Below are positions 56,679 to 64,000 of a stretch of 64,000 nucleotides of DNA, one piece after another (position 1 is the stretch's first letter; every line of letters begins with the position of its first letter). Under the pieces are notes generated by a model that did no database searches, was not told the DNA's origin, and worked only from the letters and a program-made list of their open reading frames with translations. Source of the stretch: Herbinix luporum (GTDB lineage Bacteria > Bacillota > Clostridia > Lachnospirales > Lachnospiraceae). The stretch covers positions 360,501-424,500 of the forward strand of contig NZ_LN879430.1 in assembly GCF_900070325.1 (NCBI RefSeq), read 5' to 3'. The translations under genes were made by a program, and so were the position numbers.

Positions 56679-59417
56679 ATGAAAAGGCGGTTTTTTCATA
56701 AATGTATAGTGATTTTACTATGTATAGGCTTATTGGTGCCTAATCAGGTAGCAAGTACCATAGTTGCAGCTACTAGAAAGGGGACAGTAACAGCCAGTAC
56801 GCTTAATGTCAGAGCTAAACCATCTACATCTGCCAAAAAGGTACAGCTTAATGACGGAACTTATGTTTATCTACGTAGAAATGAAACCGTAACAATTTTA
56901 GAGGAAGCAGGAGACTGGTATTATGTTTCTCTAAAGTTCAACGGGAAAAATATAAAAGGTTATGTACATGGTGATTACATTAAGGCGGAGAAAAGTAAAA
57001 GTACAAAAAAGACGCCAACGCCTACACCTACTCCGACACCAAAACCCACCCCGACACCTAAACCGAAAAACAGCAGTACATCCCAGGGATATAAGCATCA
57101 AGCTTCTGTTACTGCCAGTTCTTTAAATGTTAGAAGTGGGGCAGGTACAAATTATTCTAGAATAGGTTCTTTAAAGAAGAACAATAAGGTTACTGTTATT
57201 GGTGAGGCAGAAAATAGTAATACAAAATGGTATCAAATTAATATGGCAAATAATAAAACCGGATATGTATCCAGCCTTTATATTAAGTTAGATTTGAAAA
57301 AGAGCATTAAAGGGAAAGTAATTGCTTCCAAGATAAAGGTAAGAAAAAGTGCCAACAGTAAGTCTGCTTATGTAAAAAATTCATCAGGTAATATTATTTC
57401 ACTTAAAAAAGATAAGGCTGTAAATATTATAGATGAAGCAGTAGTGTCCGGTGAAAAGTGGTACAAGATATCATTTACGGTAAGTAAGGTAAAGTACAGC
57501 GGTTATGTTCCCGCTTATCAGATTGGATTTAGGGGAGAAGAAACCAAAAACACATCGGCACCTACTCCTACACCGACCCCAAAACCAAAAGCGACGCCGA
57601 CACCAAAACCAACGCCGACGCCTACCCCAAAGCCAAAAGCAACACCAACGCCAAAGCCAAAAGCGACACCCACACCAAAACCAACGGCGACGCCTACCCC
57701 AAAGCCAAAAGCAACACCGACACCAAAACCAAAGGCAACGCCGACACCTGTTCCGACGCCGGCGGATGCTAAGGTTTTAGAGATTAAAGACAATCCTATT
57801 TATTCATATATATATGGACCTATAGATGGCTTTGTATGTAATATTTTATATCTTAATGTATATGAAAACAGGGCGGTAAATGACAACTTTTTATATGATT
57901 CATCCGGTAAACCTGTTTTACTAAAAAGCGGAGATAAGATTCAAATTAATGAAGCCATAAGGGTAAACGGTGAAACTTGGTATAATGTCTCTTATAATAA
58001 TATAAGGGGACATGTTAGGGCTGAATATATTTATGTAGGATCCAAGTTACCTGCTAATGTTGACTGGAAGCAACCGGAAGCACCTGAAGTGCCCAAAGCA
58101 ACTCCTACACCGGTTCCTGATAATACTGATGATTTAGATTTTGAGGAAATGCTTATTAGAGAAGGTTTCCCGGAATCTTATAAGGAAGGTCTAAGACAGT
58201 TACATGCCAAACATCCCAACTGGGTGTTTTTAGCCTACCATACGGGACTTGATTGGAACACTGTGATTAAGGAAGAAAGTGTACCGGGCAAGAATACCAT
58301 ACCTAATTCAAGAAGTGTGGAATGGCTATCCTTTGATAAGGGGGCATATGATTGGAAGACGGACAAGTTCGTTGTATATGACGGTACATATTGGGTTACA
58401 GCTTCTAAAGCTGCCATAGAATATTATATGGATCCAAGGAATTTCCTAGATGAAGAGAGAATCTTCCAATTTGAACTTCTTAGATATCAAAGCCGTTATC
58501 AAAATGCAAAAGGTGTAGAGAATATATTAAAGGGAACAGCACTATATAATAAGTCATATACCTTCATAGACGATGACGGTAAATCTAAGACCTTAACTTA
58601 TGGTGAGACATTTATAAAGGCAGCAGAGTATTCAGGGGTAAGCCCTTACCATTTGGCATCCCGTGTTAAGCAGGAAGTAGTAACCGGGCCAAATACACTT
58701 AGTAACAGTGTGTCAGGTACATACAAAGGATATGAGGGTTATTACAACTTTTATAATATCGGAGCTAATGACAGCCCCGGTGGAGGTGCCATTGCCAACG
58801 GATTAAATTATGCCAAGAACGGTAGCAAGAACAAGGCAAATAATGAGAAATACCTTATTCCTTGGACAAGTCCTTATAGATCTATAGTGGGAGGGTCATA
58901 TTTCTTGGGAAGCACCTATATTAATAGGGGGCAGGATACGGTTTATTTACAGAAATTCAATGTAACTCCCGTATCAACTTATTTCCATCAATATATGACC
59001 AATGTGGAAGCTCCTTGGGCAGAGGCAAAAAAGATAGCCGCAGCCTATAAGAATATGGAAGATACTCCTATAGTATTCTCTATTCCGGTATATCTGAATA
59101 TGCCATCCAAACCTTGTCCAAGACCTACAAAACAGTATAATCCTAATAACAGATTAAAGAGCTTGAAAGTTCTTGATGTAAAAGGTAAGGAACTTAAGAT
59201 TTCACCTACCTTTGATCAAACAGAATACAATTATTATCTGATTGTAGGAAATAATATTGAGACAGTAGATATTAAAGCTAGCAGTGTAAGTACAAAAGCC
59301 AAAGTAATAGGAGGAGGAACTATACCTCTTAGTGTAGGAAATAATGAGATAGTTATAAGAGTTGTTGCTGAAAATGGCGACATTGCAAACTATACCATTA
59401 ATATTGTAAGGGAGTAA
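56679..59417 (+). CDS. Secreted SH3-domain glucosaminidase-like wall hydrolase
   Basis: A 912-residue exported protein. A signal peptide spans about 1-30. Bacterial SH3 domains lie at about 36-105, 142-208, 213-285 and 375-455. Pro-Thr-Lys linkers separate them (110-130 and 295-362). A glucosaminidase (GH73-like) domain follows at about 490-800, with the likely catalytic Glu in SRVKQEVV. The last 85 residues form a cadherin-like beta-sandwich. Such proteins bind and cut peptidoglycan. The cadherin-like end is shared with the next gene and may attach them to each other or to the wall. Confidence 0.85.
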   Translation: MKRRFFHKCIVILLCIGLLVPNQVASTIVAATRKGTVTASTLNVRAKPSTSAKKVQLNDGTYVYLRRNETVTILEEAGDWYYVSLKFNGKNIKGYVHGDYIKAEKSKSTKKTPTPTPTPTPKPTPTPKPKNSSTSQGYKHQASVTASSLNVRSGAGTNYSRIGSLKKNNKVTVIGEAENSNTKWYQINMANNKTGYVSSLYIKLDLKKSIKGKVIASKIKVRKSANSKSAYVKNSSGNIISLKKDKAVNIIDEAVVSGEKWYKISFTVSKVKYSGYVPAYQIGFRGEETKNTSAPTPTPTPKPKATPTPKPTPTPTPKPKATPTPKPKATPTPKPTATPTPKPKATPTPKPKATPTPVPTPADAKVLEIKDNPIYSYIYGPIDGFVCNILYLNVYENRAVNDNFLYDSSGKPVLLKSGDKIQINEAIRVNGETWYNVSYNNIRGHVRAEYIYVGSKLPANVDWKQPEAPEVPKATPTPVPDNTDDLDFEEMLIREGFPESYKEGLRQLHAKHPNWVFLAYHTGLDWNTVIKEESVPGKNTIPNSRSVEWLSFDKGAYDWKTDKFVVYDGTYWVTASKAAIEYYMDPRNFLDEERIFQFELLRYQSRYQNAKGVENILKGTALYNKSYTFIDDDGKSKTLTYGETFIKAAEYSGVSPYHLASRVKQEVVTGPNTLSNSVSGTYKGYEGYYNFYNIGANDSPGGGAIANGLNYAKNGSKNKANNEKYLIPWTSPYRSIVGGSYFLGSTYINRGQDTVYLQKFNVTPVSTYFHQYMTNVEAPWAEAKKIAAAYKNMEDTPIVFSIPVYLNMPSKPCPRPTKQYNPNNRLKSLKVLDVKGKELKISPTFDQTEYNYYLIVGNNIETVDIKASSVSTKAKVIGGGTIPLSVGNNEIVIRVVAENGDIANYTINIVRE
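57561..57762 (+). repeat. Pro-Thr-Lys coding repeat (linker)
   Basis: Imperfect short repeats code for PTPKPKAT-type units within the wall hydrolase. A shorter similar tract lies at about 57013-57068. The opposite strand is open as a Gly-Val repeat, a by-product of the base pattern. Confidence 0.9.
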
Positions 59418-59599: not shown

Positions 59600-60820
59600 A
59601 TGAAAAGAAGATTATTTAAAGCAATAGCATTTTGCCTCTTATTTGTAATGGGCGGATTATTAAATATAAGCAGCATAAAGGCAGCCAGTGCCAATATAGA
59701 AATTACAGCTGATAACAATCAGATAACTGTCGGTGATAGTGTATATGTGTATATAACCATTGATTCAGATACCATCTTTTCTGATATTGAGGCTAATTTA
59801 GTCTATGATGAAAATATTTTAGAATACAAAAGCGGAGCTTCATTTATTAAGGGAAGCAGTGGCTTTTTAAAAATTGCTGATGTTAATATTTCAGAAGCTG
59901 ATGACAATAGAAAATATGCCTTAGAATTTAAGGCTATAAAAGTTGGTAAATGTGAGATAGAATTTAGCGGTCAGATTATGGTATATGATTATGAGACAGG
60001 CATGCCTATGTCTGTATCTAGTAATATTTTGGAGTTAGAGGTTAAGGCAGCCCATACAGCCTCTGATAATGCCAGTCTTGCCTCATTAAAGATAAGTCCT
60101 TCACAGTTAAATCCTGCATTTGACAAGAATATATATGAATATAATACCAATGTAGCTTATGATGTAGAGAAGTTAGTTGTGGTAGCACTTCCGGAAGATG
60201 AAAAGGCAACTATTCGCATTTCCGGTAATGAAACTTTAAAAGAAGGAGAAAATAAAGTTATTACAACAGTTGTTGCCGAGTCCGGAAAGAAAGTAGAATA
60301 TGTAATTAATGTTACTAAGGAAAGTGCTCCGGAAGATGAATTAGATATAGATCCAATAACACCGGATAATCGTCACGGTAGTTTTGAATTAATTCAGGAG
60401 GATAATGAAATATTTGCTATATATAATGGAAAATATAAATTGCTAGAACCCGCTAGTGATGTAAAAATACCTGAGGGTTACACAAAAACCAATATGATAT
60501 TATCAGGTATATCTATTTCGGTATACGAACCTAATCTACCCGGTAGCGATTTTGTTCTTATATATGCTGAGAATGAGCTGGGGGAAGCAAACTTCTATCG
60601 TTATGATAAGGTTGAAAAAACCCTGCAGCGTTTTGTGGAAGATATAGATTCCGTAACAGATCCTTCAGATAATATAGATAATGAGGATCAAAGTAGCTCT
60701 AAAAAATACCGTTCTAAGTTAAATAAGGCTGCTATTGTTATATCAATACTCTGTGCCCTATGTGCCGGTTTAGTAATTGTTGTAGTTCGTTTGTATATAA
60801 AGAATAGGAAGCAAAAATAA
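59600..60820 (+). CDS. Cohesin-like membrane-anchored surface protein
   Basis: A 406-residue exported protein with a signal peptide at about 1-28. A cohesin-like beta domain follows at about 30-150, including NQITVGDSVYVYITIDS and FSDIEANLVYDENILEY. Next comes a cadherin-like beta-sandwich at about 160-240, like the C-terminus of the wall hydrolase upstream. One membrane helix lies at about 375-398 (AAIVISILCALCAGLVIVVV), with a short basic tail inside. The layout points to display of a binding module on the outer face. A dockerin-bearing partner was not found in the window. Confidence 0.75.
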   Translation: MKRRLFKAIAFCLLFVMGGLLNISSIKAASANIEITADNNQITVGDSVYVYITIDSDTIFSDIEANLVYDENILEYKSGASFIKGSSGFLKIADVNISEADDNRKYALEFKAIKVGKCEIEFSGQIMVYDYETGMPMSVSSNILELEVKAAHTASDNASLASLKISPSQLNPAFDKNIYEYNTNVAYDVEKLVVVALPEDEKATIRISGNETLKEGENKVITTVVAESGKKVEYVINVTKESAPEDELDIDPITPDNRHGSFELIQEDNEIFAIYNGKYKLLEPASDVKIPEGYTKTNMILSGISISVYEPNLPGSDFVLIYAENELGEANFYRYDKVEKTLQRFVEDIDSVTDPSDNIDNEDQSSSKKYRSKLNKAAIVISILCALCAGLVIVVVRLYIKNRKQK

Positions 60821-60838
60821 GACCGGACCTTTTATATA

Positions 60839-60867
60839 TTGACAAAGAAACATATCTGTTATACAAT
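60839..60867 (+). promoter_or_regulatory. Sigma-A promoter of the gntR-mcsAB-clpC operon
   Basis: A perfect TTGACA at 60839-60844, a 17-bp spacer and TACAAT at 60862-60867. The -10 lies inside a long palindrome. Confidence 0.85.
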
Positions 60868-60882
60868 ATGTATAACAGATAT
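60852..60882. promoter_or_regulatory. 14-bp perfect inverted repeat, probable GntR operator
   Basis: ATATCTGTTATACA at 60852-60865 and its exact complement at 60869-60882 are separated by ATA. It covers the -10 and the likely transcription start. YtrA-type GntR repressors bind such sites before their own genes. Confidence 0.75.
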
Positions 60883-60902
60883 AACTAAATTGGTTGTGTA
60901 TC

Positions 60903-60921
60903 TATGTGATTTAATCACATA
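60903..60921. promoter_or_regulatory. Second palindrome in the same leader
   Basis: TATGTGAT and ATCACATA flank a 3-nt centre. It lies just before the ribosome site of the gntR gene. The core TGTGA-TTTAA-TCACA is like CRP/FNR-family sites, but the spacing is shorter than in standard CRP boxes. Confidence 0.4.
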
Positions 60922-60944
60922 AAATAAAGTAAGAGGTGTATACG

Positions 60945-61319
60945 ATGTATGTGAAGATTGATTTTAATAGTGATGAAGCTCTTTATATACAGCTAAGAAA
61001 TCAGATCATATATGGCATTGCATCCTCTCAGTTCCAGGAAGGGGATAATCTTCCGTCAGTAAGAGAATTGGCAGAGTATATTGGAATCAATATGCATACA
61101 GTTAATAAAGCATATTCTATTCTGAAACAGGAGGGATATATTAAACTGGATCGAAGAAAAGGCGCAGTAGTTGCTATTGATGTCAATAAGATGCAGGCTA
61201 TTGAGGATTTGAAGGAAGAACTTAGAGTAATACTGGCCAAGGCAATTTGTAAAAACTTAAGTCGTAATGACGTAATTGAGGTTATTAATGAGATTTATAA
61301 TGAGTTTGAAAGGGGGTAA
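60945..61319 (+). CDS. YtrA-type GntR family regulator
   Basis: ATG 60945 is chosen, with AAGAGGTG upstream; a GTG at 60936 lies inside that site. The 124-residue protein has a GntR winged helix (ALYIQLRNQIIYGI, then SVRELAEYIGINMHTVNKAY) and a short helical tail for dimerisation. Short YtrA-type proteins usually repress an operon that starts with their own gene. Here it heads mcsA-mcsB-clpC, where the stress regulator ctsR normally sits. No CtsR-like protein is encoded nearby. It probably binds the palindrome at 60852-60882. Confidence 0.9.
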   Translation: MYVKIDFNSDEALYIQLRNQIIYGIASSQFQEGDNLPSVRELAEYIGINMHTVNKAYSILKQEGYIKLDRRKGAVVAIDVNKMQAIEDLKEELRVILAKAICKNLSRNDVIEVINEIYNEFERG

Positions 61320-61324
61320 CTCCT

Positions 61325-61870
61325 ATGTTGTGTGACAGATGTTTAAAAAGAAATGCAAAAGTATTATATACTGAAATAATTAATGGCGTAAAGACGGAAC
61401 AACATCTTTGCGAAGAATGTGCAGCTGATTATACATCCTTTCAAATGGAAAAACCTTTATTAAATTCTGATATTACCCTAAATAGTTTACTATCAACCTT
61501 ATTAGGGGGATATCATACAAGTGCAACAAAGAAGCCTGGAGAAAGCAAACCCAGCCTTGTTTGTGAAGGTTGTAAGTCCACTTATGAAGAGTTTTTGCAA
61601 AGAGGGCGTTTCGGATGTGCCCAGTGTTATCGCAGCTTCCATGGGGAATTGGGAGAAACATTAAGAAGAATACAGGGGGCTGAAGTTCATACCGGAAAAC
61701 GGCCCAAAGGCTTTGTCTCATCAACAGATAAGATATTACAGGACTTAACTGAGGTAGAGAGACTATCCATAGAACTTCAGGAGGCCATAGAAAAAGAAGA
61801 ATTTGAGGAAGCAGCTAGGCTTAGGGATTTAATTAGGCAGCTAAAAAAGGAGGAGGCCAATAATGCTTAA
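61325..61870 (+). CDS. mcsA: Protein-arginine kinase activator McsA
   Basis: A 181-residue zinc protein with CxxC pairs at about 3-6 (CDRC) and 28-31 (CEEC), then 79-82 (CEGC) and 98-101 (CAQC). A C-terminal UVR motif follows at about 140-178. McsA turns on the arginine kinase McsB. It starts 5 bp after gntR and overlaps mcsB by 8 bp. Confidence 0.93.
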   Translation: MLCDRCLKRNAKVLYTEIINGVKTEQHLCEECAADYTSFQMEKPLLNSDITLNSLLSTLLGGYHTSATKKPGESKPSLVCEGCKSTYEEFLQRGRFGCAQCYRSFHGELGETLRRIQGAEVHTGKRPKGFVSSTDKILQDLTEVERLSIELQEAIEKEEFEEAARLRDLIRQLKKEEANNA

Positions 61871-62897
61871 ATGGTATGAAGAGATTGTACCGGATGGCGA
61901 CGTGGTTATCTCCAGCCGTGTTAGGCTTGCCAGAAATTTAGAGGATTTTAAATTCTCCCCCTTGCTTGTGGAAGCAGAGGCTGTAAAATTAGTAGACAGG
62001 GTTAAGAGTATAACCACATCCCTAGCAGAACAGGATAAGAGAAAGTATTATTCCTGTAATATTCAAACATTAAGTGATATTGATAAAGCTGCCATGGTAG
62101 AAAGGCATATAGTAAGCCCTCTGCTGGCAGAGAAAGAACAGACTACTGGCTTAATACTATCAGAAGATGAGACAGTCAGTATTATGATAAATGAGGAGGA
62201 CCATGTAAGGATTCAAGCTATTGTAGCCGGAATGAATCTAGAGGGGGCCTATGAGATAGCAAATCGAATAGATGATATTGCCTATGAGCAACTTAAATTT
62301 GCATATGATGAGAAATATGGATATATGACTTCTTGTCCCACTAATTCCGGAACAGGGATGAGAGCATCTTGTATGGTGTTTTTACCTGCACTTAGTGCTG
62401 CAAGAATGATACAGAAATTGTTTGAAGAGGTTGGCAGATATGGTGTAACTATCCGTGGCATTTACGGAGAAGGAACCAAAAGCTTAGGTAGTATATATCA
62501 GATATCCAACCAGAAGACCTTAGGTAATTCTGAGCTGGAGATTATCGATAACCTAAAGCGTATAGTTGATCAAGTTGTAAAACAGGAAAGAAAAAGAAGG
62601 GAATATATGCTATCCCTTAATTCAGATGAAATAGAAGACCAAGTATACCGTGCTTATGGTGTATTAAAATATGCTAGAAATATAAGTTCAGATGATGCAA
62701 TGACTCTTTTATCCCAATTAAAATTTGGGCTAGATTGTGGATTAATAAAGTTTGACAAAGAATTTAATATCCATAAGATGATGATGGGTGTACAGCCTGG
62801 AAGCCTTCAGTGGACCATCGGTAAAAATGTAGGAAGCATAGCAAGGGATAGAGCTAGAGCTGAATATATTAGAAAAGAATTACCTACAATTATATAA
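61863..62897 (+). CDS. mcsB: Protein-arginine kinase McsB
   Basis: A 344-residue guanido kinase with SSRVRLARNLEDFKFS near 17, the NEEDH substrate loop near 117 and CPTNSGTGMRAS near 161. It tags proteins with phosphoarginine for degradation by ClpC-ClpP. The operon neighbours are McsA and ClpC, as expected. In Bacillus it also inactivates CtsR, but no ctsR is present here. Confidence 0.95.
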   Translation: MLKWYEEIVPDGDVVISSRVRLARNLEDFKFSPLLVEAEAVKLVDRVKSITTSLAEQDKRKYYSCNIQTLSDIDKAAMVERHIVSPLLAEKEQTTGLILSEDETVSIMINEEDHVRIQAIVAGMNLEGAYEIANRIDDIAYEQLKFAYDEKYGYMTSCPTNSGTGMRASCMVFLPALSAARMIQKLFEEVGRYGVTIRGIYGEGTKSLGSIYQISNQKTLGNSELEIIDNLKRIVDQVVKQERKRREYMLSLNSDEIEDQVYRAYGVLKYARNISSDDAMTLLSQLKFGLDCGLIKFDKEFNIHKMMMGVQPGSLQWTIGKNVGSIARDRARAEYIRKELPTII

Positions 62898-62908
62898 CAT
62901 ATAATATT

Positions 62909-63058
62909 TAATATTGTTAAATATAATATTGCCAAATATTTAATATTGCCAAATATTTAATATTGTAAAATATTTAATATTGTAAAATATTTAATATTGT
63001 AAAATATTTTATATTGTAAAATATTTTATATTCTGAAATGTTTTATATTTTGATGGTA
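62909..63058. repeat. 17-bp AT-rich tandem array between mcsB and clpC
   Basis: Seven consecutive 17-bp units of the form TAATATTGTAAAATATT fill 62924-63042, with partial units on both sides. The third to fifth units are identical; others differ at one to five bases. Each unit is partly self-complementary (AATATT and AAATATT parts). It fills most of the 213-bp gap before clpC and contains no open gene. Confidence 0.9.
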
Positions 63059-63110
63059 CAATGAAGAGATACCCGGCTAGTACTCATAAGTTAGAATGGA
63101 GGACATTAAG

Positions 63111-64000
63111 ATGAACGATAAATTTACACAAAATGCAATACAAGCGATTAATTCCGCTAGGGAAACTGCTTTACGTCTTAACCATAATTATATTGGTACA
63201 GAGCATATCCTAATGGGTTTAATGCAGGTTGATGGAGTTGCCTCCAGAGTACTAAGAGAAAATGGCGTAACTGTTGAGAAGGTTATGGAGCTGGTTAATC
63301 AGCTTATAGCACCTAGCAGCGGCGTTGAAATGATGGAGGGGGGAGATTTTACCCCAAGATCTAAGCGAATTTTAGATCAAAGTCAGAGGGAAGCAGCCAG
63401 ATTTAAAGCCCAACAAGCAGGTACCGAGCATATCTTAATTGCCTTGCTTAGGGAGCAGGATTGTATAGCTGTAAGGCTTTTAAATACCCTTGGAGTTAAT
63501 CTACAGAAGGTATATATTGATTTGTTGCAGGCAGCCGGTGTAGATATCAGTACTGCTAAGAATGATTACTCTGCCAGTAAAAATAAGGGTAAGGCTAAGT
63601 CCTCTACCCCAACTCTTGACCAATACAGCAGAGATTTAACCCAATATGCCAGAGATGGCAAATTAGATCCTGTAATTGGCAGAGAGACTGAAATTCAAAG
63701 AGTGGTTCAGATACTAAGCAGACGGACCAAGAATAACCCTTGCTTAGTGGGTGAACCGGGAGTGGGTAAGACAGCTATTGCTGAAGGCCTTGCCCTTAAA
63801 ATAGTTGAAGGAAATATTCCGGAAACCATTAAGGATAAAAGGGTAGTTACCTTGGATTTATCCGGTATGGTAGCAGGCTCTAAATATCGTGGTGAATTTG
63901 AAGAAAGAATTAAGAAGGTAATAAATGAAGTTATAAACGACGGAAATGTACTTTTATTTATCGATGAGCTTCATACCATAATAGGGGCAGGTGGAGCAGA
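63111..64000 (+). CDS. clpC: ATP-dependent Clp protease ATP-binding subunit ClpC (partial)
   Basis: ATG 63111 follows TGGAGG. The first 296 codons are present; the gene continues past the window edge. It has the double Clp N-terminal repeat (about 5-140, with [14 protein letters not shown] and [13 protein letters not shown]) and the start of the first AAA+ domain with Walker A GEPGVGKT near 213 and Walker [10 protein letters not shown] near 283. ClpC unfolds phosphoarginine-tagged proteins for ClpP. It may be read from the operon promoter or from an additional promoter near the AT array. Confidence 0.96.

Follow-up and report, generated by a model that had tools for sequence, protein, structure and literature searches.

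A YtrA-type GntR regulator and its candidate operator in the place of CtsR at the clpC operon of Herbinix luporum and its relatives

The CtsR-McsB-ClpC system is the textbook heat-shock circuit of Gram-positive bacteria. What governs these genes where a repressor of another kind stands at their head is the question raised by the end of a 64,000-nucleotide window of the Herbinix luporum genome (NZ_LN879430.1, positions 360,501 to 424,500; coordinates below are those of the window unless stated otherwise), where the cluster that runs from 60945 onward, all on the + strand, reads gntR-mcsA-mcsB-clpC. An initial annotation of this DNA had proposed that a YtrA-type GntR regulator with an operator of its own stands in for ctsR, and the genes, the inverted repeat, the match to YtrA and the failure to find a ctsR gene in the genome all bear this out. 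We consider it very probable that in this bacterial family such a regulator has taken over a CtsR-like regulon, acting as a repressor of its own operon, of hsp20 and of clpB that is released when proteins unfold.

A GntR gene and operator in the position of ctsR

The H. luporum genome (one contig of 2,609,352 bases, 99.98% complete) holds no match to the CtsR model PF05848 at E ≤ 0.001, and none of 397 genomes drawn from the family, presumably Lachnospiraceae, exceeds the cut-off of that model, with a single weak match below it. The model itself works, since 166 of the 236 genomes sampled class-wide score above its cut-off; this class sample is the actual control, Lactococcus lactis having matched among 14 named control genomes. 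CtsR boxes, searched with up to two mismatches to what we take to be the box sequence, are missing from all 110 gntR upstream regions, and a perfect box stands just before ctsR in five of six ctsR loci, each of which was searched over its whole 3.2-kb length. Within the sensitivity of the model, this genome refutes control of the operon by a ctsR gene elsewhere, a reading that we regard as scarcely conceivable.

Upstream of gntR, a sigma-A-type promoter on the + strand with 11 of 12 consensus matches (TTGACA at 60839-60844, a 17-nt spacer and TACAAT at 60862-60867) is overlapped at its -10 box by a perfect 14-bp inverted repeat whose arms, 60852-60865 and 60869-60882, lie 3 nt apart. A promoter scan is by itself not sufficient to raise such a site above chance (19 found, 15.8 expected, standard deviation 4.6); conservation in relatives does so. 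In 28 genus loci the contig is long enough to show the -35 box, and TTGACA stands upstream of the operator core in 27 of them, TTGACT in the other. This core, TGTTATA-N7-TATAACA at 60857..60877, covers the -10 box and is the proposed binding site of the GntR protein. It is identical in 29 of 30 genus loci, the contig of the thirtieth (L005) ending 62 nt short of the gene, with a constant 7 nt between its halves. Outside the core the arm sequences vary between these loci, so the 14-bp repeat on a near-consensus promoter, present just as the initial annotation described it, resolves into a conserved core of 7 bp in each half with variable flanks. With at most one mismatch, a degenerate form, TGTKMTA-N7-TAKMACA, is present no more than 250 nt from gntR in 76 of the 80 loci examined in the family (39 of 40 without and 37 of 40 with McsB). 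None of the 1237 control segments of 250 nt, mostly coding and taken from farther along these loci, contains it, and it turns up in 3 of the 1600 sequences obtained by single-base shuffling.

A third half-site, GATATAAC (TATAAC), at 60878..60885 on the + strand, repeats the right arm in direct orientation 9 bp downstream. With up to one mismatch to RRTATAAC it recurs in 29 of 30 genus loci, at distances of 21 to 179 nt from the start codon, and across the family it tracks mcsAB, being present in 24 of 37 loci that have these genes and in 1 of 39 that lack them, an association that may reflect shared ancestry. Extra half-sites near GntR-family sites are described at 7-12 nt in passages of one regulon survey (PMC4494728; also PMC6746942 for YtrA features), whereas the start of the present one is 13 nt away from the centre of the palindrome. 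A second perfect palindrome, TATGTGATT-T-AATCACATA, occupies 60903-60921, after the operator and ahead of the ribosome-binding site; no equivalent of 8 bp or more stands at that place in the other genus upstream regions.

The proposed repressor itself is encoded on the + strand by gntR (60945..61319, stop included; 124 aa), which most likely starts at ATG 60945, behind the ribosome-binding site AAGAGGTG that we read off the sequence at 60931..60938 (+ strand); the listed GTG at 60936 would be part of that site. Its N-terminal part carries the GntR winged helix-turn-helix, with PF00392 as the best Pfam match (48.2 bits, cut-off 27, E 8.6e-13), and a profile built from its relatives matches Sulfolobus YtrA, 6SBS, over positions 2-122 of 125 (E 4.4e-25), a match that extends over the short C-terminal domain, two helices of about 50 residues in all. 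A single-sequence AlphaFold model, weak at a mean pLDDT of 65.9, places helices at 80-102 and 107-123, and a fold search with it returns 6SBS first (E 1.2e-05), in agreement with the sequence match. Like B. subtilis YtrA and Sulfolobus YtrASa (6SBS), the protein thus joins a winged helix-turn-helix to some 50 C-terminal residues in two helices, is encoded first in its cluster (judged by gene order alone for the operon) and is paired with a long palindrome. Within the core this palindrome reads GT-N15-AC, and GT and AC far from the centre are a YtrA-subfamily feature in passages of PMC4494728 and PMC6746942. By these sequence traits the protein is a member of the YtrA subfamily, and its predicted regulon is CtsR-like without membership in the CtsR family.

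Conservation across genus and family

McsB is matched in 33 of 34 genus genomes, the thirty-fourth having gntR and mcsA at a contig end (L347), and the order gntR-mcsA-mcsB-clpC holds in all 30 loci examined of the 33. Within the family, this GntR or a homologue is found at E ≤ 1e-20 in 267 of 397 genomes, mostly below 1e-40, and McsB in 94. The 150 GntR matches listed of these 267 come from 150 different genomes, 48 with McsB and 102 without. In all 48 that have McsB, gntR lies 533-1101 nt before mcsB, which leaves room for mcsA. We examined 40 loci of each kind, the first in E-value order (40 of the 102 McsB-less, and 40 of the 46 linked ones that were new to the analysis): in every McsB-less locus gntR stands directly 5' of clpC on the same strand, and in every McsB locus it stands 5' of mcsA-mcsB, with clpC next in 39 and the contig of the fortieth ending. 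Because all 40 McsB-less loci keep gntR-clpC, the constant partner of the GntR is clpC and not mcsB. The initial annotation had proposed both a genome search for ctsR and a survey of gene order in relatives, and their yield, no PF05848 match and a family-wide linkage of gntR to clpC or mcsAB, agrees with its reading of the locus.

The clpC-linked proteins also stand apart by sequence. In a tree of 57 rows, made of every second of the 80 family GntRs, the window GntR, 15 weaker loci and one paralogue from the same genome (L217, with a stop inside, and the partial L225 left out, the partial L218 kept), the 41 clpC-linked GntRs form one side of a branch with support 100/99, in a bootstrap that is not fully settled and with long branches among the outside rows. 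The best GntR match outside the family in the class sample scores 146 bits, against 210-224 bits for clpC-linked family members, and 17 weaker GntR loci (L210-L226; 15 of other families) have neither clpC nor mcsA in the flanks read, which extend to at most 1.5 kb.

In other families of the order, 18 mcsB loci, two of them cut short (L176 and L179), have no GntR gene before mcsA and, by eye, no CtsR-like open reading frame either; a search of these loci with a GntR hidden Markov model at E ≤ 10 found none, the positive control being recovered in 80 of 80. Genome-wide, CtsR is missing from G050 and G052, the sole two genomes of these families on record. A loss of CtsR at the base of the order is therefore no more than a guess. 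Open reading frames that look by eye like PadR and MarR regulators precede mcsA in two other families, at L169:1632-2003 and L173:1351-1782 (the second as reverse complement), and CtsR may have been replaced more than once.

In the window, the remaining genes of the cluster follow on the + strand. The gene for the protein-arginine kinase activator, mcsA (61325..61870; NF053706, E 8e-42, below the curated cut-off of that model), is separated from gntR by 5 nt and overlaps the protein-arginine kinase gene mcsB (61863..62897; NF002194, 406 bits, above the cut-off of 385). The window end cuts clpC, which begins at 63111 (alternative ATG 63096) and runs to 64000, a span of 296 N-terminal codons with Clp_N and AAA domains. 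Between mcsB and clpC lies an AT-rich tandem array of a 17-bp unit, AATATTTAATATTGTAA, in 8.8 copies (62903-63049); of 29 genus relatives, 28 have a shorter gap between the two genes and L023 has a longer one. On the other side of gntR, 5' of it, two proteins with cadherin-like domains are encoded at 56679-59417 and 59600-60820, the former with additional SH3 domains and a repeat rich in Pro, Thr and Lys; proteins that look similar by eye are encoded 5' of mcsA in several GntR-less relatives.

Candidate operators before hsp20 and clpB

The exact core occurs once in the H. luporum genome, and six further places (L040-L045) differ from it by one mismatch. Two of these, L040 and L045, precede hsp20 and clpB, and they are the two other sites in the genome that fit the degenerate pattern. 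The hsp20 site, at genome position 589442, accompanies a TTGACA-17-TATATT promoter before a gene whose product matches HSP20 at E 1.6e-17, its nearest NCBIfam model being Hsp18_Clos, below the cut-off; the clpB site, at genome position 2526436, accompanies TTGAAA-17-TATAGT before a gene whose partial protein is best matched by TIGR03346 (ClpB). At both promoters the operator lies on the -10 box, as it does at gntR. Of the other four places, L043 and L044 are inside genes, L042 is 33 nt upstream of a gene, and L041 is 22 nt upstream of one on the opposite strand. A wider regulon drawn from looser matches was dropped, the core with two mismatches giving 60 forward sites in this genome against 96 for its control.

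The same two genes recur across the genus. In its 34 genomes, a forward search with TGTKMTA-N7-TAKAACA yields 90 sites and the reversed control 7; the gntR operators are among the 90, and together with the two additional H. luporum sites they also served to define the pattern. Among the sites listed, 49 further ones comprise 23 before hsp20, 15 before clpB, one before gntR at a contig end, and ten before other genes or none. With H. luporum included, at least 24 genomes have an hsp20 site, at least 16 a clpB site and at least 14 both, and a promoter with 10 or more of 12 consensus matches, taken as the best of eight registers tried, accompanies 20 of 24 hsp20 sites and 10 of 16 clpB sites. In clpB upstream regions of named genomes, the operator with up to one mismatch is present in 14 of 24 family loci and in none of 56 others; family membership follows the record titles and is presumed, partly by hit-list rank, for L262 (titled Clostridium sp.) and genera such as Diplocloster, Mediterraneibacter, Agathobacter and Parablautia, and the family count without L262 is 13 of 23. 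The gene for the proposed repressor heads the clpC operon and, to judge from operator sequences, its product would also control other class III genes.

The ten other genus sites are L339, L232, L344, L237, L350, L351, L242, L358, L248 and L363; at L344:1501-1521, in one genus member, the operator-like TGTGATATAATGTATATAACA lies 56 nt 5' of an ftsH-like gene, and the L351 site precedes a gene that resembles rpsP by eye. In the clpB upstream regions of L259, L262, L264, L270 and L273, a CIRCE-like sequence, recognised by eye, stands beside the GntR operator, which suggests that clpB would be under double control there, by HrcA and the GntR.

In one rival account the operator belongs to another regulator, with the GntR a mere passenger beside clpC. 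We consider this very unlikely: the operator, at up to one mismatch, is found in none of 29 mcsA upstream regions that lack this GntR (17 from other families of the order, the broken contig L179 being left out, and 12 from its own family) nor in the 56 clpB upstream regions outside the family, gntR has the operator on its own promoter, and the GT...AC spacing fits YtrA-type sites.

Other observations count against the proposed takeover of a CtsR-like regulon. No GntR match at E ≤ 1e-20 was found in 130 of the 397 family genomes, about 14 of the 267 with a match have only one worse than 1e-40, possibly to paralogues, and neither the G237 match nor the second one in G079 adjoins clpC. Thirteen of the 94 McsB genomes are without a GntR match, and at the 12 mcsA-mcsB loci examined from these (L187-L198) neither gntR nor the operator precedes mcsA, which may mean secondary loss of the GntR or another regulator. 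The neighbourhood and operator counts come from the best-scoring matches (80 of the 150 listed, of 267). Among the targets, 10 of the 49 further genus sites are not before hsp20, clpB or gntR, four of them lying inside genes; the hsp20 and clpB sites mostly depart from the gntR form by a single letter (TAGAACA); at 4 of the 24 hsp20 sites none of the registers tried gives a good promoter, and the Hsp20 proteins encoded there are only 37-42% identical to that of H. luporum; and 10 of the 24 family clpB loci have no site. No site turned up before clpP, clpE or clpX, genes that were not looked at directly, and weak targets are unreadable from sequence because in the H. luporum genome the two-mismatch pattern is rarer than its control.

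Release of the repressor and place among known circuits

From the position of the sites on the -10 box, we propose that a GntR dimer binds TGTTATA-N7-TATAACA and blocks RNA polymerase, so that the repressed targets would be its own operon (gntR-mcsA-mcsB-clpC, or gntR-clpC where mcsAB is missing), hsp20 and clpB. The GntR gene carries the operator itself, which would make the circuit self-limiting. When proteins unfold, for example on heating, the repressor would let go and ClpC, ClpB and Hsp20 would be made. The release step most likely resides in the repressor itself or in feedback from Clp or chaperones, and probably not in McsB, since most of the listed genomes with this GntR have no McsB.

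In the CtsR circuit McsB inactivates the repressor, and the initial annotation had suggested that it may act on the GntR; it would then inactivate the GntR likewise, by phosphorylating its arginines. That mcsA and mcsB belong to the gntR cluster, both here and at all 30 genus loci examined, is consistent with such a role, as are three arginines of the DNA-binding domain, R40, R70 and R71, that are invariant or nearly so, the greater frequency of arginine at residues 99, 84 and 61 where McsB is present, and the two glutamates of the ClpC N-domain (GTEH), which we take to be phospho-arginine contacts and which are kept. Yet McsB is missing from 102 of the 150 listed GntR genomes, and the McsB-less loci examined keep both the gene order (40 of 40) and the operator (39 of 40). 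R40, R70 and R71 are as conserved without McsB as with it, and in a comparison of 40 McsB-holding with 40 McsB-less species no arginine is both conserved in the former and missing in the latter. The largest difference is at residue 99, which is arginine in 14 of 40 against 3 of 40; arginine is also commoner with McsB at residues 84 (13 against 5) and 61 (19 against 11), and where it is missing at 99 and 61 lysine mostly replaces it. The ClpC glutamates do not mark McsB dependence, for they are kept in 40 of 40 McsB-less loci and in all 38 readable McsB loci. McsB as a general inactivator of the GntR is thus rejected, on its distribution and on an arginine test that is weakly negative; it could act where both proteins exist, and as an account of release we hold the McsB reading to be improbable.

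The protein may instead answer a signal other than heat, such as envelope stress or a small molecule, as is thought for B. subtilis YtrA, and quality control would then be wired to that signal. The initial annotation offered this as one of two possibilities, and the YtrA type of the protein speaks for it. The targets predicted from sequence are clpC, clpB and hsp20, not transporters, and the operators on Hsp20 and ClpB promoters elsewhere in the H. luporum genome, at heat-shock genes, turn us from a non-heat signal, which we judge unlikely. Heat or protein damage is the likeliest signal; we place sensing by the repressor itself, or coupled to Clp, ahead of a different signal, and McsB last.

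In other Firmicutes clpB is among the targets of CtsR. The circuit proposed here resembles the CtsR regulons of Firmicutes (C. acetobutylicum, B. subtilis, O. oeni) in that an autoregulated repressor gene would head mcsA-mcsB-clpC, with hsp18 or hsp20 as a further target, but the protein is unrelated (a GntR, not PF05848), as is the operator (TGTTATA-N7-TATAACA, not a GGTCAAA direct repeat). According to passages of PMC3828012, CtsR sites in C. acetobutylicum precede ctsR-yacH-yacI-clpC and hsp18, and class III there also counts clpP, clpE and clpX. Intrinsic sensing without McsAB has a precedent, since lactic acid bacteria keep CtsR regulons without these proteins and O. oeni CtsR senses heat itself, as set out in parts of PMC6305308. 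HrcA, with its operator CIRCE (class I), is likewise a repressor of chaperone genes in the same genome, though with another protein and another operator; three CIRCE sites precede hrcA-like, groES/groEL-like and htpG-like genes in H. luporum, as named by eye.

Most of the YtrA regulons known so far consist of one operon with ABC transporters, according to passages of the large GntR regulon survey (PMC4494728), which makes a chaperone regulon over separate loci for ClpC, ClpB and Hsp20 unusual. Among the titles and abstract openings listed by our literature searches, we found no description of a GntR regulator controlling clpC, clpB or hsp20, and the main text of that survey, its supplementary regulon table aside, contains neither "clpC" nor "heat shock".

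We tentatively suggest, with slightly more doubt than conviction, that this GntR is a second class III heat-shock repressor of independent origin, a protein of YtrA fold with no known ligand that would sense heat or unfolded protein itself or through ClpC, and that CtsR was replaced early in a major family of anaerobes, with McsAB lost afterwards in many members. If true, some species would control ClpC in the absence of both CtsR and arginine phosphorylation. Most sampled members of this large family appear to run CtsR-kind genes with an unrelated repressor, often without McsB, which makes them a natural experiment on the identity of the sensor. For genes labelled merely GntR by the families searched, our findings propose a function, and a YtrA regulator without a known ligand acquires a role in which sensing can be tested directly.

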